In this document: one piece after another, positions 38,195 through 63,307 of the stretch
Position numbering within the stretch: position 1 is the first letter of the stretch
Layout of the letters: each line of letters begins with the position of its first letter
Source of the DNA: a bacterium
Lineage (GTDB): Bacteria; SZUA-79; Acidulodesulfobacterales; Acidulodesulfobacteraceae
Reading direction: 5' to 3'
Assembly: GCA_021777135.1 (NCBI GenBank)
Contig: JAJYDX010000001.1
Location: forward strand, 310,001-374,000
DNA: 64,000 nucleotides
Translations under genes and position numbers: made by a program
The notes under the pieces: generated by a model
What the model saw: only the letters and a program-made list of their open reading frames with translations
Told to the model about the DNA's origin: nothing
Database searches by the model: none

Positions 38195-40992
38195 TAATAA
38201 AAGGCGCAAGACAGCATAATTTAAAAAATATAAGCTTAGAAATTCCTAAAGATAAAATTGTCGTGATAACTGGACTTTCTGGTTCCGGCAAGTCATCTTT
38301 GGCATTTGATACCATATTTGCCGAAGGGCAGAGGAGATATTTAGAATCTCTGTCCTCTTACGCAAGGCAATTTATGGAGCAAATGGATAAGCCCGACGTA
38401 GATTCCGTAGAAGGACTTTCACCGGCTATATCAATAGAGCAAAAATCTGTAAGCAAAAATCCTCGTTCCACCGTAGGAACTATTACTGAGATTTATGATT
38501 ACTTAAGGGTTCTTTTTGCGAGAATTGGAATTCCTTACTGCTATAAATGTGGTAAAAAAATAGAGCCTAAAACGGTCGATCAAATGGTTGAATCGGTTTA
38601 TTCCAATAAAATAGGGGAAAAATTGATAATTTTGTCTCCTGTAGCTATTGGAAGAAAGGGTGAGTTCAAGGCAAAATTCGAAGATTATCTAAAGCACGGA
38701 TTTTATAGAATATATGCTGACGGCATAGAATATAATCTTGACGAACCCGTTAATCTCGACAAGAAAAAGAAACATAATATTGATTTAGTTATCGATAGGT
38801 TAGTCATAAAAGAAGAAAATAAAAAAAGATTATTTGATTCTATTGAGCTTGCTTTAAAACTGTCTTCTGGCATTTTAAAACTTAAATATGAAGACAGAGA
38901 AGAGATATTGACTGAAAACTCAGTCTGTTTTGACTGTAATATAAGTTATGGTAAGCCTGAACCTGCGGTTTTTTCTTTTAACAGTCCTCAGGGCGCCTGC
39001 CCCGAATGCGGTGGATTAGGATACAAAGAATATTTTGACGAAGACCTTATTATTCCGGACAAAAATCTTTCCTTAAAAGAAGACGCAATAATTATTTTTA
39101 AAAATTCTACTCCGGTTTATAAAAATCAAATAATTCATGCATTAGCCAGACACTACGAATTTAATCCTAATACGCCGTATGCAGATTTAAGCCAAGATAT
39201 AAAACAAGCTCTATTATACGGTTCTGACGGGGAAAAAATAAAGTTTTTTGATGCGGCTGAGAGCGATAAAGCTTTTCATTTAAAATATTGGGAAGGGCTA
39301 ATACCATTGCTTGAAAGAAATATAGCAGAAGGTAATTATCTGATTGACCCTAAAAAATTTAAATCAGAAAAAATTTGCCCGGAATGCGGTGGATTCAGAC
39401 TCAGGAAAGAGTCTTTAAGCTATAGAATAGGCGGGCTTAATATAGCCGAAATTGTAAACTTATCTGTTAAAGATGCGCTAAATTTTTTTAAAAATTTAGA
39501 TTTAAGCGACTATGAAACAGGCATTGCCGCAAAAATTTTAAACGAGGTCAAAGACAGATTGCAATTTTTGGTCAATGTTGGACTTGATTATCTAACTCTT
39601 TCTAGGCAGGCGCAAACGCTTTCTGGCGGTGAATCTCAAAGGATAAGACTTGCTTCTCAAATAGGCTCCGGTTTAACAGGCGTTCTATATGTCATGGACG
39701 AACCAAGCATAGGTTTGCATATGAGGGACAATGAGCGGCTTCTTAAAACTATTTTTGATTTGCGCGATAAAGGTAATACTCTTATCGTCGTAGAGCATGA
39801 TGAATCTACTATGCTTAAGTCAGACTATATAATAGATATGGGACCAGGTGCTGGAAAAAACGGAGGATATATAGTAGCCGAAGGTACGCCAGTCGAAATA
39901 ATGAAAAATCCAAATTCATTGACAGGTAAATATTTATCTGGAGATTTAAAAATAAATATGCCGGACTACAGAAGGAATAATTTATCAGGTTTTTTGGAAA
40001 TAATAGGCGCAAAAATGAACAATCTTAAAAATATAAACGTTCAAATTCCATTAAACAATTTTATATGCGTAACCGGCGTATCAGGTTCTGGAAAGAGTAC
40101 GTTAATAATTGATACGCTATATCAAGCGATGTCAGCTTATAAGAACGGGTATATAGCGGATTTTAAAAAGTTTGAAGTAGACGATATAAAGAACATAAAA
40201 TATTTTGACAGAGTAGTAAATATAGATCAGTCGCCAATAGGCAGGACGCCGAGATCCAATCCGGCGACCTATACAGGAATTTTTACCCTAATAAGGGACA
40301 TTTTTGCCGGTACAAAAGAAGCAAGGATAAGAGGCTACGACCCTGGCAGGTTCAGTTTTAATGTAAAAGGAGGCAGGTGTGAAGCTTGCAGCGGGGATGG
40401 AGTAAAAAAAATAGAAATGCTTTTTATGCCCGATGTTTATGTAATGTGCGATATATGTAAAGGCAAAAGATATAACAGGCCTACTTTAGAAATTACATAC
40501 AAAAATAAAAATATTTATGATGTCTTGAATATGACGGTAAAAGAAGCCTATGATTTTTTTGATGCCGTTCCGGCGCTTTCGCATAAATTAAAGTTTTTAA
40601 TCGATGTAGGATTGGATTATATAAATTTAGGACAGCTTGCTACTACATTGTCCGGCGGCGAAGCGCAAAGGATAAAACTTTCAAAAGAATTATCAAGACC
40701 AGGACAGTATAAAACCCTTTATATTCTAGACGAACCTACCACAGGACTTCATTTTGACGACATAAGCAAACTTTTAAGCATATTAAATCTTTTAGTTGAA
40801 GCGGGAAATACCGTTATAGTGATAGAACATAATTTAGATGTAATAAAATCCGCCGATTACATAATAGACATCGGACCTGAAGGCGGAGACGAAGGCGGCA
40901 GAATAATAGCATATGGAACGCCGGAGGAAATTTCTATTAACAAAAATTCGTCCATAGGCTCATATTTAGCCGCATTACCTGATTTTAGTTAA
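38179..40992 (+). CDS. uvrA: Excinuclease ABC subunit A
   Basis: A 937-residue UvrA, the damage-recognition ATPase of nucleotide excision repair. It has two ABC modules: Walker A GLSGSGKSSLAF (near 31) and GVSGSGKSTLII (near 632), with signatures LSGGESQRIRLA and LSGGEAQRIKLS. It also has zinc-binding CxxC groups (CYKCGKK, CPECGG, CEACSGDG). Its location near mfd brings coupled-repair genes together. Length is typical. Confidence 0.98.
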   Translation: MERKIIIKGARQHNLKNISLEIPKDKIVVITGLSGSGKSSLAFDTIFAEGQRRYLESLSSYARQFMEQMDKPDVDSVEGLSPAISIEQKSVSKNPRSTVGTITEIYDYLRVLFARIGIPYCYKCGKKIEPKTVDQMVESVYSNKIGEKLIILSPVAIGRKGEFKAKFEDYLKHGFYRIYADGIEYNLDEPVNLDKKKKHNIDLVIDRLVIKEENKKRLFDSIELALKLSSGILKLKYEDREEILTENSVCFDCNISYGKPEPAVFSFNSPQGACPECGGLGYKEYFDEDLIIPDKNLSLKEDAIIIFKNSTPVYKNQIIHALARHYEFNPNTPYADLSQDIKQALLYGSDGEKIKFFDAAESDKAFHLKYWEGLIPLLERNIAEGNYLIDPKKFKSEKICPECGGFRLRKESLSYRIGGLNIAEIVNLSVKDALNFFKNLDLSDYETGIAAKILNEVKDRLQFLVNVGLDYLTLSRQAQTLSGGESQRIRLASQIGSGLTGVLYVMDEPSIGLHMRDNERLLKTIFDLRDKGNTLIVVEHDESTMLKSDYIIDMGPGAGKNGGYIVAEGTPVEIMKNPNSLTGKYLSGDLKINMPDYRRNNLSGFLEIIGAKMNNLKNINVQIPLNNFICVTGVSGSGKSTLIIDTLYQAMSAYKNGYIADFKKFEVDDIKNIKYFDRVVNIDQSPIGRTPRSNPATYTGIFTLIRDIFAGTKEARIRGYDPGRFSFNVKGGRCEACSGDGVKKIEMLFMPDVYVMCDICKGKRYNRPTLEITYKNKNIYDVLNMTVKEAYDFFDAVPALSHKLKFLIDVGLDYINLGQLATTLSGGEAQRIKLSKELSRPGQYKTLYILDEPTTGLHFDDISKLLSILNLLVEAGNTVIVIEHNLDVIKSADYIIDIGPEGGDEGGRIIAYGTPEEISINKNSSIGSYLAALPDFS

Positions 40993-41011
40993 ATTCATAA
41001 TATCCCACCTT

Positions 41012-41036
41012 ATTTCATTTCATTTCATTTCATTTT
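41012..41036 (+). repeat. ATTTC pentanucleotide tandem repeat
   Basis: Four perfect ATTTC units and a fifth degenerate one (ATTTT) lie between uvrA and the proton ATPase, about 75 bases upstream of the sigma-54-type promoter. Confidence 0.85.
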
Positions 41037-41111
41037 AGAAAATATCATATTTATTTTAAGTATTAGCGTTATTCAAACGAAACACATCTGAATATGCTGA
41101 ATAAAATTATA

Positions 41112-41127
41112 TGGCATAAAAAATGCT
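41112..41127 (+). promoter_or_regulatory. Sigma-54 (-24/-12) promoter of proton ATPase 1
   Basis: TGGCATAAAAAATGCT has GG (41113-41114) and GC (41125-41126) at exactly the spacing of the consensus TGGCACG-N4-TTGCW. It is the best such match I found in the intergenic regions. CTGAATA direct repeats (41088-41094 and 41097-41103) lie just upstream. A sigma-54 activator gene follows this transcription unit. Confidence 0.65.
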
Positions 41128-41211
41128 TATCTATAATTTGCTCTTATTGATATCTTCGTTACTTAATTTAGCTTTTAAATTAACTGTATTTTTAAACAAA
41201 TTGGGGGGTAC

Positions 41212-43644
41212 ATGACCAAAGAAAAGGAAACTGTATGCGAGTATGTCTGCCTTACTACAGAACAGGCAAATCAAAAAATTGAAGTATGCGGTTTAAACTG
41301 CGTAGAGGAAGAAAAAAGAAATCCAGTAAAAGAATTTTTAAAGAGGTTTTGGGGGCCTATTCCATGGATGCTCGAGTTTGCGGCATTGCTGGAAATTATA
41401 GTAGGAATAACTAGAAAGCAGGACGTAAAATTTATTGAAGCGGCAATTATACTCGCACTTTTAGTATTTAATAGCATTATGTCTTTTATGCATGAAGGCA
41501 AGGCACAGCAGGCGCTTGAGCTTTTAAAACAACGTCTTGCCGTTAAGGCAAAGGTTATGAGGGACGATAAATGGACTATACTGGATGCGAAATACCTTGT
41601 TCCTGAAGACGTCGTTCATTTGAGGATGGGCGATTTTGTTCCTGCGGATATTAAAATTCTGGACAGCCAGATACAGCTTGACCAGTCTGCGCTTACCGGC
41701 GAGTCTCTTCCTATAGAGGCAGAAAAAGGAAGCGTAGCTTTTTCAGGCTCCGTAGTAAAAAGAGGCGAGGCGACAGGAATAGTCGTTGCTACTGGTAAAG
41801 AAAGTTATTTTGGAAAGACTGCCGAACTTGTTAAAATCGCAAAGACAAAGAGCAATCTTTCGAAGCTTATATTTAAAATCGTCAAATATATGATGTATAT
41901 GGATTTTATTCTTTTAGCTTTTTTTCTAGTTTATGCTCTTTCGCATGGTTTTAGCCCTGCAGACACGATAGTATTTATACTCGTTATTTTAATAGCTGCC
42001 ATTCCTATCGCACTGCCAGCCACTTATACGCTTTCCACGGCGCTAGGCGCTCTTGAGCTTTCAAAAAAAGGAGTTCTTACTACCAAACTTTCTGCTATCG
42101 AAGAGTCGGCGGCAATGACCGTGTTGTGCTCAGATAAGACAGGTACTCTGACTGAGAATAAAGTTATACTTGAAGATATAACACCGGTCGAGGGGCATAC
42201 TAAGGAAGAACTGCTTACTTACTCCATTATGGCAAGTGACGAAAAAAGTCAGGATGCTCTGGACGATGCGATATTTAAAGTTACTAATCCAATGAATTTG
42301 AAACCTGAAGGAGATAAGATTACTTTCACGCCGTTTGACCCAGCTACTAAAAGAACAGAGGGGTTATATAAGGTTAACGGCGAAGAAGTCAGGATATTTA
42401 AAGGGCAGCCCGGAACAATATGGAATCTTACCCAGCAAAATTCAGAAGCAGCATATAAATATGAAAATATTGAAAGAGAACTTGCCCAGAAAGGCGAAAG
42501 GGTCCTTGCGGCTGCTTACGAAAAAGGCGGTAAGTATGAATTTCTAGGTTTCTTAGGTTTTATGGATCCAGAAAGAGAAGATTCCAAGCCTCTTGTTCAT
42601 GAACTTCGCAAACTTGGCGTAAGAGTTATAATGCTTACAGGCGATACCGCTATTACCGCTAAAACAATCGCTAAAAGACTGGATATAGGCGAAAGAGTGT
42701 GTGAAAGGAAAGAACTTATAGAAATGAGCAAAGATAAAGAAAAAGAAAAAGGTCTTGCGGATTACGACGTATTTGGAGGGATTTATCCTGAAGACAAATA
42801 TAATATAGTTAAGGCATTACAAGACAACAACTTTATAGTCGGTATGACCGGAGACGGTGTCAATGATTCTCCAGCCCTTAAACAGGCAGAGGTCGGCATT
42901 GCGGTTTCCGGTTCGACTGATGTCGCAAAAGCGGCAGCCAGCATCGTTCTTACTGACCCTGGTTTATCCGATATCGTTTCAGCGATAAAAACCAGCAGGG
43001 AAATATTTCAAAGAATGGCTACTTGGGTGCTTAATAAGATAGCTAAAACCATAGAAATCTCATTCTTTACGATATTCGGGATTATTCTTATGAACTATTA
43101 TTATAATACGCCGGCGAAAAATTCCTTTATAATCACGCCAGTGCTTGTTATTTTATTGCTTTTCACCAACGATTTTGTGACTATGTCTATTTCCACAGAT
43201 AATGTTAAACATTCATTGAAGCCAAATGAATGGAGAATTAAAAATATGGTAATAGGTTCTGTAGCTATGGGTATTTTTCAGCTGATTTTCTCTTTTGGCG
43301 CCCTTGTTTATTATAAAATGCAGGGTCATTACGATATGAGCCAGATTGCAACAATAGTTTTTTTAATAATGGTATTTACCGGACAGGGAGTTCTTTATTT
43401 GGTCAGAACGGCAGACTATTTTTATAAAAGTTCGCCTTCCAAATATATGCTTATTGCAACTTTAGCAGATTTAATAGTAGTTTCTTTTCTTGCATGGATG
43501 GGAGTAAAGTTCGAAGGACATCCTCTTATAGCGCGGATTCCTCTTACGGAGATAATCCGTCTTTATGTATTTGGAGCGGTTTATCTGTTCTTGGTAGATA
43601 TAGTAAAGGTATGGATTTTCAAGAAATACAACGTCAGGCCTTAA
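41212..43644 (+). CDS. Plasma-membrane proton-efflux P-type ATPase 1
   Basis: An 810-residue P3A-type ATPase. It has an N-terminal cation-ATPase domain, about ten membrane segments, the actuator motif LTGESLP, phosphorylation site CSDKTGTLTEN with Asp308, KGQPGTI nucleotide domain, and hinge MTGDGVNDSPALKQAEVGIAV. The family pumps protons out of the cell using ATP, as in fungal Pma1. In bacteria it is frequent in acidophiles. A strong GGGGGG ribosome site precedes the ATG. It is monocistronic, between a -24/-12 promoter and a terminator. A second copy at 60847-63159 is shorter and diverged. Direction and ion are inferred from family. Confidence 0.92.
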   Translation: MTKEKETVCEYVCLTTEQANQKIEVCGLNCVEEEKRNPVKEFLKRFWGPIPWMLEFAALLEIIVGITRKQDVKFIEAAIILALLVFNSIMSFMHEGKAQQALELLKQRLAVKAKVMRDDKWTILDAKYLVPEDVVHLRMGDFVPADIKILDSQIQLDQSALTGESLPIEAEKGSVAFSGSVVKRGEATGIVVATGKESYFGKTAELVKIAKTKSNLSKLIFKIVKYMMYMDFILLAFFLVYALSHGFSPADTIVFILVILIAAIPIALPATYTLSTALGALELSKKGVLTTKLSAIEESAAMTVLCSDKTGTLTENKVILEDITPVEGHTKEELLTYSIMASDEKSQDALDDAIFKVTNPMNLKPEGDKITFTPFDPATKRTEGLYKVNGEEVRIFKGQPGTIWNLTQQNSEAAYKYENIERELAQKGERVLAAAYEKGGKYEFLGFLGFMDPEREDSKPLVHELRKLGVRVIMLTGDTAITAKTIAKRLDIGERVCERKELIEMSKDKEKEKGLADYDVFGGIYPEDKYNIVKALQDNNFIVGMTGDGVNDSPALKQAEVGIAVSGSTDVAKAAASIVLTDPGLSDIVSAIKTSREIFQRMATWVLNKIAKTIEISFFTIFGIILMNYYYNTPAKNSFIITPVLVILLLFTNDFVTMSISTDNVKHSLKPNEWRIKNMVIGSVAMGIFQLIFSFGALVYYKMQGHYDMSQIATIVFLIMVFTGQGVLYLVRTADYFYKSSPSKYMLIATLADLIVVSFLAWMGVKFEGHPLIARIPLTEIIRLYVFGAVYLFLVDIVKVWIFKKYNVRP

Positions 43645-43674
43645 TTTTATTTCATATGCCTGCTGTAAAAAAGT

Positions 43675-43716
43675 AAAAAAATGGGACGGATTTAAAATCC
43701 GTCCCATTTTTTTTAA
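43675..43716. terminator. Bidirectional terminator between proton ATPase 1 and the sigma-54 activator
   Basis: The stem ATGGGACGGATTT with its complement AAATCCGTCCCAT, flanked by an A run and an 8-T run, serves both convergent genes. Confidence 0.92.
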
Positions 43717-43719
43717 ATA

Positions 43720-44805
43720 TCACTGAAGTTTTTCGTAAATTTCGTATCTTTTTAATTTTCGCCAGAGCGTGGAGTACGAAATATCCAATATTTTGCAAGC
43801 CCTGTTTCTTTTATATTTTGCTTTTTTTAATGCGTATATAATTCTGTTTTTTTCAGAAGTTATATCGAAAATATCTTCCTCATCGTTTTTTAGTTCTACG
43901 CTTTGTTCGCAATTTTTCCAACCCCTTATAGATAGGCTTTCATTTTTAGATTTATCCAAATAAACATCCTTACTATTTCTATATATTAAATCTTCGCGCT
44001 TTCTATCTTGCCTACCGCTGTAAGTTCCGGCATTCGCCCTTTCTTTATATTCTATGGCGCATTCTTTAAGGGATTGAACTTTCTTGCAGCCGTCATAATT
44101 CAAAATCCTGATTCTATCGAGGGCTGAAGTCATTTCTCTTATGTTCCCTGGCCATGTATATTGAAGACACTCTTCCATAAATTGTTTACTGTGGGAAATT
44201 TTTAAATTTTCTAAATAATTTGAAATAAAAAATTTAATAAAGTGGGGTCTTTCCCTTAAAGGCGGTATGTCAACCTTAATAGTAGATATCCTGTAATAAA
44301 AATCCTCTCTCATAAAACCGTCAGTTATTTTCTCGTCAATATTGGAATTTGTAGAAAATACCGTCCATAAATTAAGTAATTCAGGTATTGTGCTGCCGAC
44401 TTTTTCGCATACGTGATAATCCAGAAAATATAAAAGCTTAGACTGGTTATCTATGGTAAGCGTATCAACGTCATCAAAAAAAAGTACTCCGTTATTGGCA
44501 GTTTGAGCTTTCCCTTCGGTTGTTTCTACGGCGCCGGTAAATGCACCCTTCAGGTGGCCGCAAAGCATAGATTGAAACAGTTCTCCTGATAAGTTGAAGC
44601 AAGAAACAGTTACGATAGGCTTTGTCGGAAAAATTTTTTTTCCGACAAAATTAATAAGAGTGGTTTTACCTGTGCCGGTTTCCCCATAAATTAAGAGGTT
44701 TGTTTTAGTTTTTGCAGCCCGTTCTATTATTTTTATGCATTTCCCGATTTTAGAATCGGGGAATTGCTCAGCATAACGTTCTATCAATGCATTTTGTAAG
44801 TTCAT
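43720..44805 (-). CDS. Sigma-54-dependent transcriptional activator without receiver domain
   Basis: A 361-residue enhancer-binding protein. The AAA+ domain starts almost at once: Walker A GETGTGKTT (41-49), sigma-54-contact loop GAFTGA (87-92), Walker B VLFFDDVD (107-114), and FYYRISTIKVDIPPLRER. A polar linker with Lys/Ser/Glu leads to a Fis-type helix-turn-helix (YALKKAKYKRNRACKILDISYSTLWRKLKRY). There is no N-terminal receiver, GAF or PAS domain. As with PspF, activity would have to be set by another protein or by level. It lies convergent to proton ATPase 1, which has a -24/-12 promoter, and is the natural candidate regulator. That link is inferred. Confidence 0.9.
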   Translation of the reverse strand: MNLQNALIERYAEQFPDSKIGKCIKIIERAAKTKTNLLIYGETGTGKTTLINFVGKKIFPTKPIVTVSCFNLSGELFQSMLCGHLKGAFTGAVETTEGKAQTANNGVLFFDDVDTLTIDNQSKLLYFLDYHVCEKVGSTIPELLNLWTVFSTNSNIDEKITDGFMREDFYYRISTIKVDIPPLRERPHFIKFFISNYLENLKISHSKQFMEECLQYTWPGNIREMTSALDRIRILNYDGCKKVQSLKECAIEYKERANAGTYSGRQDRKREDLIYRNSKDVYLDKSKNESLSIRGWKNCEQSVELKNDEEDIFDITSEKNRIIYALKKAKYKRNRACKILDISYSTLWRKLKRYEIYEKLQ

Positions 44806-44905
44806 TTTTTAGGTAGGTATAATTATTATTCAAAACAAATTAATATAAAACGCTTTTTTATTTTTTATACATCATTTTAAATTAAAAATCAAATTATAAT
44901 TAAAG

Positions 44906-45049: not shown

Positions 45050-45571
45050 ATGACTAAAAGTTCAGAAGAGTCGCCGTCAAGGCGAACTTTTATGATGGTT
45101 GTAATCGGCTTAATTTCTGCTATAGTCGGCGTTGCACTTGCAGTTCCGATTCTTGGGGAAGTTTTAAGCCCTTTGTTTAAGAAGAGAGATATAGTGTGGA
45201 CAGAGCTTGGTAAAGTCAGTGACTTAGAAAATATAGAGCCATTGGTTCCAAAGTTTGTTCCAGTATATTTCAGGGTTAAAGAAGGTTGGACTGTAAACAC
45301 GCTTCCGAGACAGGTTATAGTGGTTAAGGATATAACCGGCAAACTTTATTTTTTCTCTAATCAATGCACTCATTTAGGATGTCCCTTGCACTGGATGCCT
45401 GCAAGACAAAAATTTATGTGTCCGTGCCACGGTGGCATGTTTAACGTTCTTGGCAAAGTCGTAGGGGGTCCTCCGCCCAGACCTTTATTTGTTTGGGTTC
45501 ATAAGATAGAAAACGGCACTGTATTAATCCAAAATAAGTTCCTAGATAATCCAAAAGAAAGGGGGGTCTAA
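45050..45571 (+). CDS. qcrA: Rieske [2Fe-2S] subunit of a cytochrome bc complex
   Basis: A 173-residue Rieske protein. The N-terminus has SRRTFMMVVIG followed by a single membrane anchor, consistent with Tat export. The cluster boxes are C106-T-H108-L-G-C111 and C124-P-C126-H127-G. Cys106, His108, Cys124 and His127 bind the cluster, and Cys111 with Cys126 form the disulfide. It takes electrons from quinol in complex III. It overlaps the cytochrome b gene by 1 base and has a strong GGGGGG ribosome site. Confidence 0.95.
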   Translation: MTKSSEESPSRRTFMMVVIGLISAIVGVALAVPILGEVLSPLFKKRDIVWTELGKVSDLENIEPLVPKFVPVYFRVKEGWTVNTLPRQVIVVKDITGKLYFFSNQCTHLGCPLHWMPARQKFMCPCHGGMFNVLGKVVGGPPPRPLFVWVHKIENGTVLIQNKFLDNPKERGV

Positions 45572-46677
45572 TGTTAAAAAAAATTCAAAATTGGTTTGAC
45601 GAAAGAATAGAGCTCACCGAATTAATAAATGAATTCAACGGAGAGAGGATTCCAAGAAGAGGCGGCTGGGCATATACTTTCGGAAGTTTGCTCGCGTTTC
45701 TTTTCACCGTTCAGGTTACTACGGGGATATTCTTGTTATTCTATTATGTTCCTTATTTTCCTATGGCAAGAAATGCGACCTATTATATAAAGCATCACGT
45801 TCTTCTCGGAAATATTCTGCTAGGCATACATCTTTGGGGTGCTTTTACAATGATATTTTTTCTTCTTGTACATATGGCCAGAGTTTATTTTTCTGGAGCA
45901 TATAAGAAACCAAGGGAACTTCAATGGGTTGCCGGTATGGTCTTGTTTTCGGTAGTAGTAGTCCTTGGATTAACGGGTTATATGCTGATAGGAAACGAAA
46001 ACTCATGGTGGACGATTAATGTTCTTACTAATGTTGCCGCCCATACACCTGTTATCGGAGGGTTCCTTAGAATTATCGTAAGAGGTGGAACCCAGACTTC
46101 CGTTATAACAATGCAGCATATATTTGCCGTTCACGTTTGGCTTTTGCCGATAGTAGTCATTATGTTTATCCCGATACACTTGTTCTTAATAAGAAAGACC
46201 GGTCATCAGGGAATGGCATTGGAATATAATAAAAGCAAATTATCAGACGATGATATAAACAAATGGAAACATCCGGATGCCACTATTCCGTTTTTTCCAG
46301 ATCAATTTTATAAGGATATGATAGTCGCCTTAGCCGTATTTGTCGTAATTTATCTACTTGCGGTAGTTTACGGGGCAGAAATAGGTCCAATGTATAGACC
46401 ATTGGCTTTAAATTTTGCTCCAGAGGCTGACTGGTATTTCCTTGCAAACGAAGAATTGCTCAAATATTTCCCGGGTCACGGGCTTATTATATTCTCTACT
46501 TTCCTTGTTCCCTCTATAGGGTTTGCGATACTTTTCGCATTGCCTTTCATAGACAGAGGGCATGATAGAAGCCCTTTTAAAAGACCTGCTGCAACGGTTC
46601 TTGGGATTTTGTTTCTTCTTTTGTTAGTTTATTTAACATTAATCGGCGGCGAACCAAAAGCGCCTGCTACCGTATAA
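45571..46677 (+). CDS. qcrB: Cytochrome b subunit of the bc complex
   Basis: A 368-residue cytochrome b with the N- and C-terminal parts in one chain. Heme-binding histidines lie in HLWGAFTMIFFLLVHMARVY and MQHIFAVHVWLLP...IPIHLF. The quinol-site signature appears as PEADWYF in place of the usual PEWY. About eight hydrophobic segments are visible. It is the core of the quinol-oxidising complex together with the Rieske protein and the membrane-bound cytochrome c subunit that follows 22 bases later. Confidence 0.94.
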   Translation: MLKKIQNWFDERIELTELINEFNGERIPRRGGWAYTFGSLLAFLFTVQVTTGIFLLFYYVPYFPMARNATYYIKHHVLLGNILLGIHLWGAFTMIFFLLVHMARVYFSGAYKKPRELQWVAGMVLFSVVVVLGLTGYMLIGNENSWWTINVLTNVAAHTPVIGGFLRIIVRGGTQTSVITMQHIFAVHVWLLPIVVIMFIPIHLFLIRKTGHQGMALEYNKSKLSDDDINKWKHPDATIPFFPDQFYKDMIVALAVFVVIYLLAVVYGAEIGPMYRPLALNFAPEADWYFLANEELLKYFPGHGLIIFSTFLVPSIGFAILFALPFIDRGHDRSPFKRPAATVLGILFLLLLVYLTLIGGEPKAPATV

Positions 46678-46699
46678 AATCAAAAGAGGAGTGAATACG

Positions 46700-48232
46700 A
46701 TGAATTTAGGTACTATAGATATAGTAAATTTATTTATAAACAGGCTTGCGCTTGGATTTATGGGTATTGCCTTTATATCTCAGTATATCGGGATTTTTAA
46801 AAAGGAAGACAGATATTTCAGGCTTGCAAAGCCCCTTATAATGTGCGCTTTGGTAATAGGCACTGTTCAAACCATAGTATATTTTTATTTTTTAAGCCTT
46901 CTTAAAAACGGAATCCCAAATTTTTGGATTCTTATGAATAAACTTCAGCCAGGAGTCATAGGCTATTCTATGGAGTTTTTACTGCTGTTTCTTATTCTTG
47001 GAGCCATATATTATGCCGGTTTTGACAGAAAGGGTTTAGGAAAACATCAGGGCTGGAATTTTTTTATAGGCATAATCTCTTTTCTAGCCGGTTTTACCTC
47101 CGATATTTTTTATACAATTTCGGAAAGTTATACTATTGGACCGTCGCCTGATACAGCTATAAGGACTCCAATGGTTTTGCTATTAATAATTGAGAAGAAT
47201 ATCGAGATTTTTGCTCTTGCCGGCGCATTGCTTGCAATATGGGCCGGAATTAGGTATATTTTTTCTTCAAAACAGGAAGACAAAGAGTTCTATGACTGGC
47301 TTGGGTCTTTTGCTAGCATTATAACCGTTATGTTTTTGGTAATGTATCCAATAATATATTTCGGCTGGTTTAAGCACTTCAGAGCTACCGCCAGTTCCGG
47401 ATTTAACAGAATAATGCTCGGTAAGTATCAGTGGATTATGTATGTGTTTCTGGGAACGAATGGAGCAGCTTTAATACTGGAATTCATATATATGCTGTGG
47501 AAGCTGATAAATGGAAGAGATAAATCAAGACCAACTGTCTCGGTCGGACTGATAATATTTTTTATAATAGTCGGTCTCGTTTCTTTAGGTTTTGGATTGC
47601 TTCCTCCTACTATGGGTATTCTTGGAAATATGCAGCCGGTAAAATATTTATCGCTGGCAGGACTCTTTCTAACCGGTTTTTTAGTTTTAGGCTATTATCT
47701 AAAAGACCTTACGCCTAATTTCAAATTCGGAAATATTTCAAAATTTCCGCAGATATTTTTAATATTTGCCGGACTTTGTGTTGCGGTTAATGTGCCGGTT
47801 ATGGGTTATATGAAAATAGCGGCAAGGGGAACTAACAGGATAATATATCAAACAATGAATTTAAACGGTACAAATTATGTTCCGCCTGTTGTTTATCCAT
47901 GGCCAGTTAAGAAAGGGTTTAGCCTTTTGAATGATAAGTGCGTGATTTGCCACACGTTAAACAGAGTTGAAAGATATAACGGAAAATCTTACGGCGACTG
48001 GAAAAAAGTTGTAATTAATGTAATGAAAAATGTTAACGGTTGCCCTGTAACTAATGCAGAAGGAAAGCAAATAGTCGATTATCTGAATTCGTTGAATATA
48101 ATCGCCTATAATCAGCACCTTGCAAAAGAGCATAAAAAATGGACACCGCCGGCTTCTTTACCATGGGGCACTCCAGCTTCAGCCTCAAAACCGGCTAAAT
48201 CGAAAAAAGCAGAAAAAACCGTTAAAAAATAA
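46700..48232 (+). CDS. Polytopic membrane protein with C-terminal cytochrome c domain (bc-complex third subunit)
   Basis: A 510-residue protein of about nine to ten hydrophobic segments followed by a periplasmic mono-heme domain with CVICH (414-418) and a possible methionine ligand in VVINVMKNV. A Lys/Ala-rich tail follows. The membrane part has no name I can give with confidence. Phrases such as NFWILMNKLQPGVIGY and NMQPVKYL recall CydA of cytochrome bd, but the usual CydA heme histidines are not evident. Its place in the operon makes it the electron acceptor of the bc complex. The ATG at 46700 is 9 bases after AGAGGAG; the upstream GTG (46691) overlaps that signal. Confidence 0.78.
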   Translation: MNLGTIDIVNLFINRLALGFMGIAFISQYIGIFKKEDRYFRLAKPLIMCALVIGTVQTIVYFYFLSLLKNGIPNFWILMNKLQPGVIGYSMEFLLLFLILGAIYYAGFDRKGLGKHQGWNFFIGIISFLAGFTSDIFYTISESYTIGPSPDTAIRTPMVLLLIIEKNIEIFALAGALLAIWAGIRYIFSSKQEDKEFYDWLGSFASIITVMFLVMYPIIYFGWFKHFRATASSGFNRIMLGKYQWIMYVFLGTNGAALILEFIYMLWKLINGRDKSRPTVSVGLIIFFIIVGLVSLGFGLLPPTMGILGNMQPVKYLSLAGLFLTGFLVLGYYLKDLTPNFKFGNISKFPQIFLIFAGLCVAVNVPVMGYMKIAARGTNRIIYQTMNLNGTNYVPPVVYPWPVKKGFSLLNDKCVICHTLNRVERYNGKSYGDWKKVVINVMKNVNGCPVTNAEGKQIVDYLNSLNIIAYNQHLAKEHKKWTPPASLPWGTPASASKPAKSKKAEKTVKK

Positions 48233-60850: not shown

Positions 60851-63159
60851 ATCAATTTTTTCATAACCGGAGCCTTTATAAAATCTAGTAATATCATATA
60901 GATAAACGTACTGGCAAACAGGATGGTTATGTCTTCAAGCGGAATTTTCTCCATCAGTATCCCAAAATATGCCATTAAAATTATTATTATTAAATCCAGA
61001 GCGCTTGCCAGCATTAAATAATTACCGGGTTTTGATTTATAAAAATGACCCTCCTCTCTTACTAAATAAACTGTTGCTTGAGCGCTGAATACCAATGACA
61101 GAAAAGCGAGGGTCTGAACCTGCGTAAGGCTCAGATTGATAATGTAATAGCCTATGTAATAAACTGCAAAAGAATAAATTAGCCATGCTCCAGCAATTAA
61201 AAGAGACGAAGAAACTATCAGCTTGATTTTCCATTTATCAGGTTTATTAGAATATACCGCGTTATCTTTTGCTATAGACATAGTAACAAAATCATTTGCA
61301 AAAATTAATATAAGGATTAGTTTAGGGGTAGTGACGAATTTACCGAAGAAGATTAAGCCTAAACTAAGAAAAAGAGCCACTTGGAAGGTTTTAGAAATTT
61401 TATTTAAAGTATACGTAAGCATTCTTCTATAAACTATTCTCCCATATTTTACTGCATCTACAATATTAGATAAGCCAGGTTCTGTTAGAATAAGGCTTGC
61501 CGCGGCTTTTGCAACGTCTGTCGCATTAGCAACAGCTATTCCTACTTCGGCCTGTTTAAGCGCGGGGGCATCGTTGACTCCGTCACCCGTCATGCCCGTA
61601 ATTTTTTTTAGTTTTTGAATTCCCTGTACCAGATGAAATTTGTCCTCTGGAAAAACTCCCGCAAATACGTCACATTCAGCAGGGTTTTTAAAGTTTTCGC
61701 GACCGCATACTTTTTCGCCTAGACCAATTAAATTTGCCGTGGTTTTTGCAGTGCGTTCGGTATCGCCTGTTACCATTCTAACCCTTATGCCTAAGCTTTT
61801 AAGTTCATCCAGCAATTTCTTAGAATCTTTTCTTGGAGGATCGGATAATCCTAAAATACCTACCGGTATAAATTGACTGGTTTTTTTATCTTCTATCATT
61901 ACGGCGATAACCCTGTAGCCCATATCTTCAAATTTTTCAGCTTCTTTAGAAACTTTATCGGCATCTGTATCATTTAAACTTTGAGATATTACTATTGGAG
62001 AGCCTTTAATTACGCTAATTTGCGTTCCTTCGTTTTTTTCTACTACGGCTTCCGCCCTTTTTGTTTGAGGGTCAAAAGGAATAAATTTTATTACATGTCC
62101 AATTTCAGGAATATTTATTTTATGTAATTTGACGTATGAAATTATAGAAAGGTCTATCGGATCCTGAGTCGATTCTTCTGAAGCCGCAGTTGCGTAAGCG
62201 AAAAGTTCTTCTGTCCCGAAAGGTTTTAAGGGTTTAAAATCGGTAAGAGCAAGCAAGTTTTCAGTTAACGTACCGGTTTTATCAGAGCATAATTCTTCCA
62301 TTGAAGCGATATCCTCTATTGCCGAAAGATGCGTAACAAGTATTCCCCTATTCGCAAGCCTCATAGAGGCTAATGCCGTTGCAAGTGTAAAAGTAACCGG
62401 AAGCGCTACAGGTATAGAAGCAACAAGAAGTATTAACGCGAATGGGAGTATTCCGGCAAAATTCATTTTATAGACCAATGCATAAACGAGTATCAAAGCT
62501 ACGAGAATACCGTCTATTATAATAAAATAGCGGACTATTTTAAGTATTAGTTCTTCCAGATGACCTTTAGTTTTAGCGGATTTTATTAATTCTGCAGTTT
62601 TTCCGAAATAGCTTGCCGCTCCAGTTGCCGTAACCTTACATGTAGCTTCGCCTCTTTTTATTATAGAACCAGAATAAACCGCTTCGCCATCGCTTCTATC
62701 GACCGGCTGGGATTCTCCGGTTAAAGCCGATTGGTCAACTAATGTATTTCCTGAAATAATTTTGATATCTGCCGGAACTAAATCGCCCATTCTTATATGA
62801 ATAACATCTCCGGGGAGCAATTCTTCGGCAGGCAGCTTAATCCACTTGCCGTCCCTTAATACCCTTGCGATAATTTTAAGCTGTTTTTTTAATAAATCGA
62901 GAGCTTTTTCAGCTTTATTTTCTTGCTTAAAAGAAATTGCCGCATTAAATAAAAGCAAGCCTATGATAATATATGCTTCTATGTGTTTCCCAAGTATTAA
63001 TTCTACAATAAAAGTAAACTCGAGCATCCAAGCAACAGGATTCCAGAATTTGGAAAGAAAAATAATAAACGGGTGCCTTTTTTGTTCCTTTATAGTGTTT
63101 AACCCGTATTGCACGGTTAATTTTTTGGCTTCTTCGGATGTCAGACCTTTAAAATCCAT
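60847..63159 (-). CDS. Plasma-membrane proton-efflux P-type ATPase 2
   Basis: A 770-residue P3A-type ATPase. It shares the layout of proton ATPase 1 but is about 40 residues shorter. It begins directly at the cation-ATPase N-domain (LTSEEAKKLTVQYGLN), with LTGESQP, CSDKTGTLTEN (Asp293), MTGDGVNDAPALKQAEVGIAV and about ten membrane segments. AGGA lies 9 bases before the ATG. No -24/-12 promoter is visible in front of it, unlike copy 1, so the two copies may be used under different conditions. Proton as the ion is inferred from family. Confidence 0.92.
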   Translation of the reverse strand: MDFKGLTSEEAKKLTVQYGLNTIKEQKRHPFIIFLSKFWNPVAWMLEFTFIVELILGKHIEAYIIIGLLLFNAAISFKQENKAEKALDLLKKQLKIIARVLRDGKWIKLPAEELLPGDVIHIRMGDLVPADIKIISGNTLVDQSALTGESQPVDRSDGEAVYSGSIIKRGEATCKVTATGAASYFGKTAELIKSAKTKGHLEELILKIVRYFIIIDGILVALILVYALVYKMNFAGILPFALILLVASIPVALPVTFTLATALASMRLANRGILVTHLSAIEDIASMEELCSDKTGTLTENLLALTDFKPLKPFGTEELFAYATAASEESTQDPIDLSIISYVKLHKINIPEIGHVIKFIPFDPQTKRAEAVVEKNEGTQISVIKGSPIVISQSLNDTDADKVSKEAEKFEDMGYRVIAVMIEDKKTSQFIPVGILGLSDPPRKDSKKLLDELKSLGIRVRMVTGDTERTAKTTANLIGLGEKVCGRENFKNPAECDVFAGVFPEDKFHLVQGIQKLKKITGMTGDGVNDAPALKQAEVGIAVANATDVAKAAASLILTEPGLSNIVDAVKYGRIVYRRMLTYTLNKISKTFQVALFLSLGLIFFGKFVTTPKLILILIFANDFVTMSIAKDNAVYSNKPDKWKIKLIVSSSLLIAGAWLIYSFAVYYIGYYIINLSLTQVQTLAFLSLVFSAQATVYLVREEGHFYKSKPGNYLMLASALDLIIIILMAYFGILMEKIPLEDITILFASTFIYMILLDFIKAPVMKKLI

Positions 63160-63307
63160 AATTTTTTATCCTAGTCTTAATTTTACGATACAAAAAATAT
63201 AAACTTTGCAGCAAAATAACTCTTTATTTGCTGTTGGCTTTATTTTAAATTTTATTATAAAATTATATAAATATTATATATATTTTATAATAATCTTTAT
63301 AAAAAAT

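Follow-up and report, generated by a model that had tools for sequence, protein, structure and literature searches.

Analysis of a 64,000-nucleotide stretch of bacterial DNA (the window) indicates that a P-type ATPase gene and the activator gene facing it are a real, conserved two-gene cassette. From sequence comparison we hold with good confidence that this cassette is regulatory, the activator, a block of phased TCA half-sites and a sigma-54 promoter together switching the neighbouring P3A-type (H+-ATPase family) pump. The pump would very probably be switched on by its dedicated activator and not be always on. It is a protein of 810 aa encoded on the forward strand (41212-43644). The one-component sigma-54 activator (361 aa; 43720-44805, reverse strand) was assigned by Pfam, orthologue alignment and an AlphaFold2 model. 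The two open reading frames confirm that the activator gene is the convergent neighbour described in the initial annotation. Both genes lie tail to tail, with a terminator-like hairpin at 43675-43713 (18-pair stem, T/A tails) between them.

A -24/-12 match 85 bases ahead of the pump had been proposed from the sequence of this one locus, and it proved to be real. The element TGGCATAAAAAATGC at 41112-41126 matches the GG-N10-GC form of sigma-54 elements exactly, with GG (41113-41114) and GC (41125-41126) separated by the standard 10 bases. Between its final C and the ATG of the pump gene (41212) lie 85 bases. The pattern TGGCAY-N6-TGC occurs only once in the window, at 41112-41126, and 35 times in the genome (2.1 Mb) versus 10 times for the reversed control. 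Some of the other sites precede NifH-, PII-, homocitrate synthase-, type IV pilin- and flagellar-type genes, as identified from their N-termini. Such genes are textbook sigma-54 targets, and therefore the pattern describes real sigma-54 promoters of this organism. The gene for sigma-54 itself, rpoN, was looked for and is present in the genome. A promoter match in one sequence would be modest evidence; here it is far more than chance, because the element is conserved before the orthologous pump in all genomes where pump and activator co-occur (9/9). The comparison set consisted of 30 genomes of one family of uncultured bacteria, and searches at class and phylum level gave the same 30; the nine genomes holding both genes share ancestry, so that counts among them overstate independence. 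Conservation of GG and GC before orthologous pumps, the key test suggested for the promoter, was thus seen in nine of nine genomes. The stretch TGGCATAAAAAATGCT (41112-41127, forward strand) is near-invariant among them. Within its 15-base core 13 positions are invariant and the other two are kept in eight of nine genomes, while the flanks diverge; the first base lies 85-130 bases ahead of the ATG. No sigma-54 element was found in the 350 bases upstream of 20 other pumps of the superfamily (46-66% identical).

The TGGCATAAAAAATGC core was also seen in other family genomes ahead of a conserved secreted DegP/HtrA-type protease-like protein (L134-L139, L158), whose counterpart in the window's own genome is L079. 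Judged by this core, the secreted protein is a possible sigma-54 target in envelope stress.

Pump and activator are inherited together. The pump of this type (type 1) is present in 10 of the 30 family genomes, with an identity of 78-100% across the aligned part; nine of these ten carry the activator. Conversely, the activator is confined to genomes with the type-1 pump (9/9 versus 10/30 overall; hypergeometric 7e-7, uncorrected for ancestry). Sixteen of the genomes lacking the pair have a Rieske gene immediately after uvrA. Where the pair is present, the uvrA tail lies ahead of the pump in the genomes read, and the activator adjoins the Rieske gene in G000 (the window), G013, G017, G018, G022 and G026. 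The pair lies between uvrA and Rieske, a site which is empty in the 16 genomes, and therefore pump and activator come or go together, be it by gain or by loss. The one type-1 pump without the activator, in G028, is 90% identical and has no sigma-54 element. Its upstream region aligns well with that of G013 only in the last ~45 bases ahead of the ATG, and the pump frame itself is interrupted close to its start, perhaps truly, perhaps through an assembly error. A scan of GTDB contigs with the activator returned seven close relatives, from MAGs, and two proteins of 30% identity in Desulfobacter. Compared over 41212-44805, the window and G017/G025 share 95-96% identity in the pump and 77% in the activator, with 83-99% in neighbouring genes. 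This mosaic suggests that pump alleles were also exchanged separately from the activator.

The activator consists of a Sigma54_activat domain, an AAA lid and a Fis-type HTH_8 domain in Pfam and nothing else. No receiver, PAS or GAF domain was found in its 361 residues, in line with the sensor-less layout noted before. An intact GAFTGA had likewise been read correctly (residues 87-92), and GETGTGKT (41-48) and REDFYYR (166-172) are further motifs. A stop codon lies directly upstream of the ATG, the open frame being 362 aa. Walker A, GAFTGA and the arginine fingers are invariant in orthologues, and the HTH is nearly so. The linker between AAA+ and HTH (about 256-316) varies in length among orthologues and is predicted to be disordered; the AlphaFold model (mean pLDDT 64.7, low confidence) was used for this linker only. 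Walker B reads Asp-Asp in all orthologues, versus Asp-Glu in the other activators of this genome for which the motif was inspected. A sigma-70-type promoter, TTGATT-N17-TATAAA, precedes the activator gene (44864-44892, reverse strand). Its sequence and spacing are kept in seven of nine genomes (in G022 it is cut by N, and G027 differs), and a sigma-54 element indicating autoregulation was found ahead of the activator in 0/9.

Taken together, the protein looks like a working one-component activator, operating like PspF without being PspF. The earlier description as PspF-like holds for the domain layout (AAA+ and HTH only), but not for the remaining features: PspA is absent, the docking loop is missing, the AAA+ core is divergent and the scores fall far below the cut-offs of the PspF family models (TIGR02974, 139 versus 443.55 bits; PRK11608, 119 versus 529). 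As in E. coli PspF/PspA, a sigma-54 activator made of AAA+ and HTH is encoded beside its target. In contrast, identity is 29%, the target here is an ion pump, and the genes are convergent where those of the PspF system are divergent. The YLW loop of PspF is the docking site of PspA (PMC3791423); in the activator this loop is five residues shorter and lacks the YLW patch. The glutamate-switch pair of PspF, N64/E108, is replaced by S68/D112. In PspF, E108D, the change that corresponds to the Asp-Asp Walker B, leaves the protein active on duplex DNA, much as the wild type is, although its ATPase is reduced; the N64S variant escapes PspA (PMC4132715). PspA was ruled out as a partner, as the genome contains no PspA_IM30 match, and the cassette itself holds no kinase or PspA-type gene. 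The suggestion that a separate partner protein controls the activator therefore gained no positive evidence.

Directly after the uvrA stop, a putative enhancer (UAS) was located at 40991-41050 on the forward strand, where TCA half-sites follow a 10-base register. TCA recurs at exact 10-base steps between the uvrA stop and the pump promoter, with a repeat unit of approximately TATTTCATTT. Chains of four to six TCA were found in seven of the nine orthologous upstream regions (six in G013, G018 and G025, five in G017, four in G019, G022 and G027), and 0/2000 first-order Markov nulls per genome matched them. When steps of 4 to 24 bases were scanned, runs appeared only at 10, with companions at 5, 15 and 20. 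The 39 units were chosen for their TCA and so all contain it; the surrounding positions vary. In two genomes, that of the window and G026, the block is degenerate, with two strict steps each, which alone are not significant; the core of the window's block is TTATTTCATTTCATTTCATTTCATTTTA (41010-41037). A search of the window's own genome with the strict 35-base enhancer consensus gave no match, because its own block is degenerate. In the family search, pairs of 15-base matches at a distance of 20 bases occurred at pump loci only. Helical phasing between enhancer and promoter was weak (Rayleigh p 0.03-0.08, depending on the assumed repeat) and was not relied on. In G017 and G025 (L021, L022), a repeat of the CATTGCGAG/GCAAAGCGA type separates the TCA block from the pump promoter and provides a natural experiment on their spacing. 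The CATTGCGAG-type repeat in G017 shifts the last TCA to -177, with block and promoter both intact. The phased TCA block is likely the enhancer of the pump promoter, and we infer that the neighbouring activator binds it and acts on that promoter.

These observations fit the following mechanism. A housekeeping (sigma-70-type) promoter would drive the small one-component activator, a hexamer of which would bind the in-phase TCA half-sites found immediately after uvrA. From there the activator would reach, by looping, the sigma-54 RNA polymerase poised at TGGCATAAAAAATGC and, hydrolysing ATP, use its GAFTGA loop to open the pump promoter. This would switch on the P3A-type pump, which most likely exports H+ under acid or energy stress. 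Since the activator lacks a sensor domain and the genome lacks PspA, the simplest control would be by activator abundance, or by some ligand or partner that addresses the AAA+ core. The initial proposal that the switch may serve in acid or membrane stress is plausible. A fully specified version seems quite unlikely; it would have a free-running activator with a Ser/Asp switch, its hexamer placing one protomer on each of six in-phase direct half-sites, with the AAA+ domain sensing pH or ATP and a single proton pump as target.

Sigma-54 control of the pump by its neighbour is strongly supported by the conserved promoter, co-inheritance and rpoN, and further by G028, which lacks promoter and activator alike, and by the phased repeats upstream. 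That the -24/-12 match is chance A/T-rich sequence, with the pump on another promoter, is extremely improbable. With one mismatch allowed, the window shows no excess of matches over shuffles (15 versus 10.9), as such a reading predicts, but it is refuted in the main by the near-invariance of the element in nine of nine upstream regions with diverging flanks, by its absence before the 20 other pumps and by the genome-wide excess over the reversed control. It is also very unlikely that the pump, though sigma-54 dependent, is served by another activator, for example of the NtrC type, and that the neighbour acts mainly at other promoters. The genome encodes twelve full sigma-54 activators, eleven besides that of the cassette, and therefore activator and pump are paired by linkage only; the -24/-12 core names no activator and also precedes unrelated genes. 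Against this stand the joint inheritance of activator and pump, both missing at the 16 empty sites, the restriction of the paired half-site array to pump loci in the family search, and G028, where activator and promoter are both lacking.

The TCA block itself leaves more room for another reading. It could be an A/T-tract bend or the site of another protein, such as IHF, with the activator binding elsewhere or acting from solution; we regard this as possible, but doubtful. In its favour, the block has the A/T-richness and the helical-turn period expected of curved DNA, and it is degenerate in two genomes. Moreover, Fis-type HTHs usually have inverted-repeat sites, and the TCA units are direct repeats. 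However, the conserved core of the 39 units is TCA and not T-runs, and the block remained intact in G017 even though an insertion pushed it to -177. Binding of the block by the cassette's own activator is the reading we prefer.

The pump passes the NCBIfam model for proton-efflux ATPases (TIGR01647; 727 bits versus a cut-off of 615.5), and its closest solved structures are plant AHA2 and fungal Pma1. It shares with these homology over nearly the whole length, the phosphorylation motif DKTGT, the M6 Asp (D654, AHA2 D684) and the M2 Asn (N87, AHA2 N106). Family membership and the latter two residues lead us to infer that H+ is the substrate. The case for H+ transport is weakened by the replacement of the basic M5 residue of AHA2, R655, by Glu615. 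Plant and fungal pumps are described as having extended regulatory termini (PMC10654040), which the pump here lacks; its control appears to be transcriptional. None of the prokaryotic P3A pumps has a proven substrate (PMC10654040). The window contains a second P3A-type pump (60856-63162, reverse strand), 47% identical and of the kind carried by most family genomes. It has no sigma-54 element upstream, and therefore only one of two such pumps in the genome is part of a sigma-54 cassette. An extra pump in G027 (L047, G027:C79; 66% identical) lies near an ATP-synthase subunit gene and also lacks the element.

Sigma-54 control of a P-type ATPase is known from CorSR-CopA of Myxococcus xanthus; what appears to be new is the same control, as deduced here, for a P3A pump. 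In that system, too, the ATPase gene is under a sigma-54 activator of the same cluster, but the activator there, CorR, is a response regulator paired with a sensor kinase, the ATPase, CopA, is of the P1B type and pumps copper, and the putative sigma-54 promoters lie inside a nine-gene operon (PMC3707914). In the open-access literature we found no report of sigma-54 control of a P3A pump and none on the regulation of prokaryotic P3A pumps. The consulted part of a study on how Ca. Acidulodesulfobacterales respond to acid stress mentions K+ uptake as well as buffering and not a P3A-type pump (PMC6776010); judged by general gene content, the genome analysed here may lie near this acid-mine-drainage group. 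If true, a sigma-54 switch that is off by default would reveal when such a pump is needed, and the cassette would offer a minimal two-gene ion-pump module, testable in the laboratory. Next to the cassette lies an apparent bc-type complex operon (45050-48232, forward strand), whose products are a Rieske protein, cytochrome b and a membrane protein that carries a c-type cytochrome domain resembling SorB.
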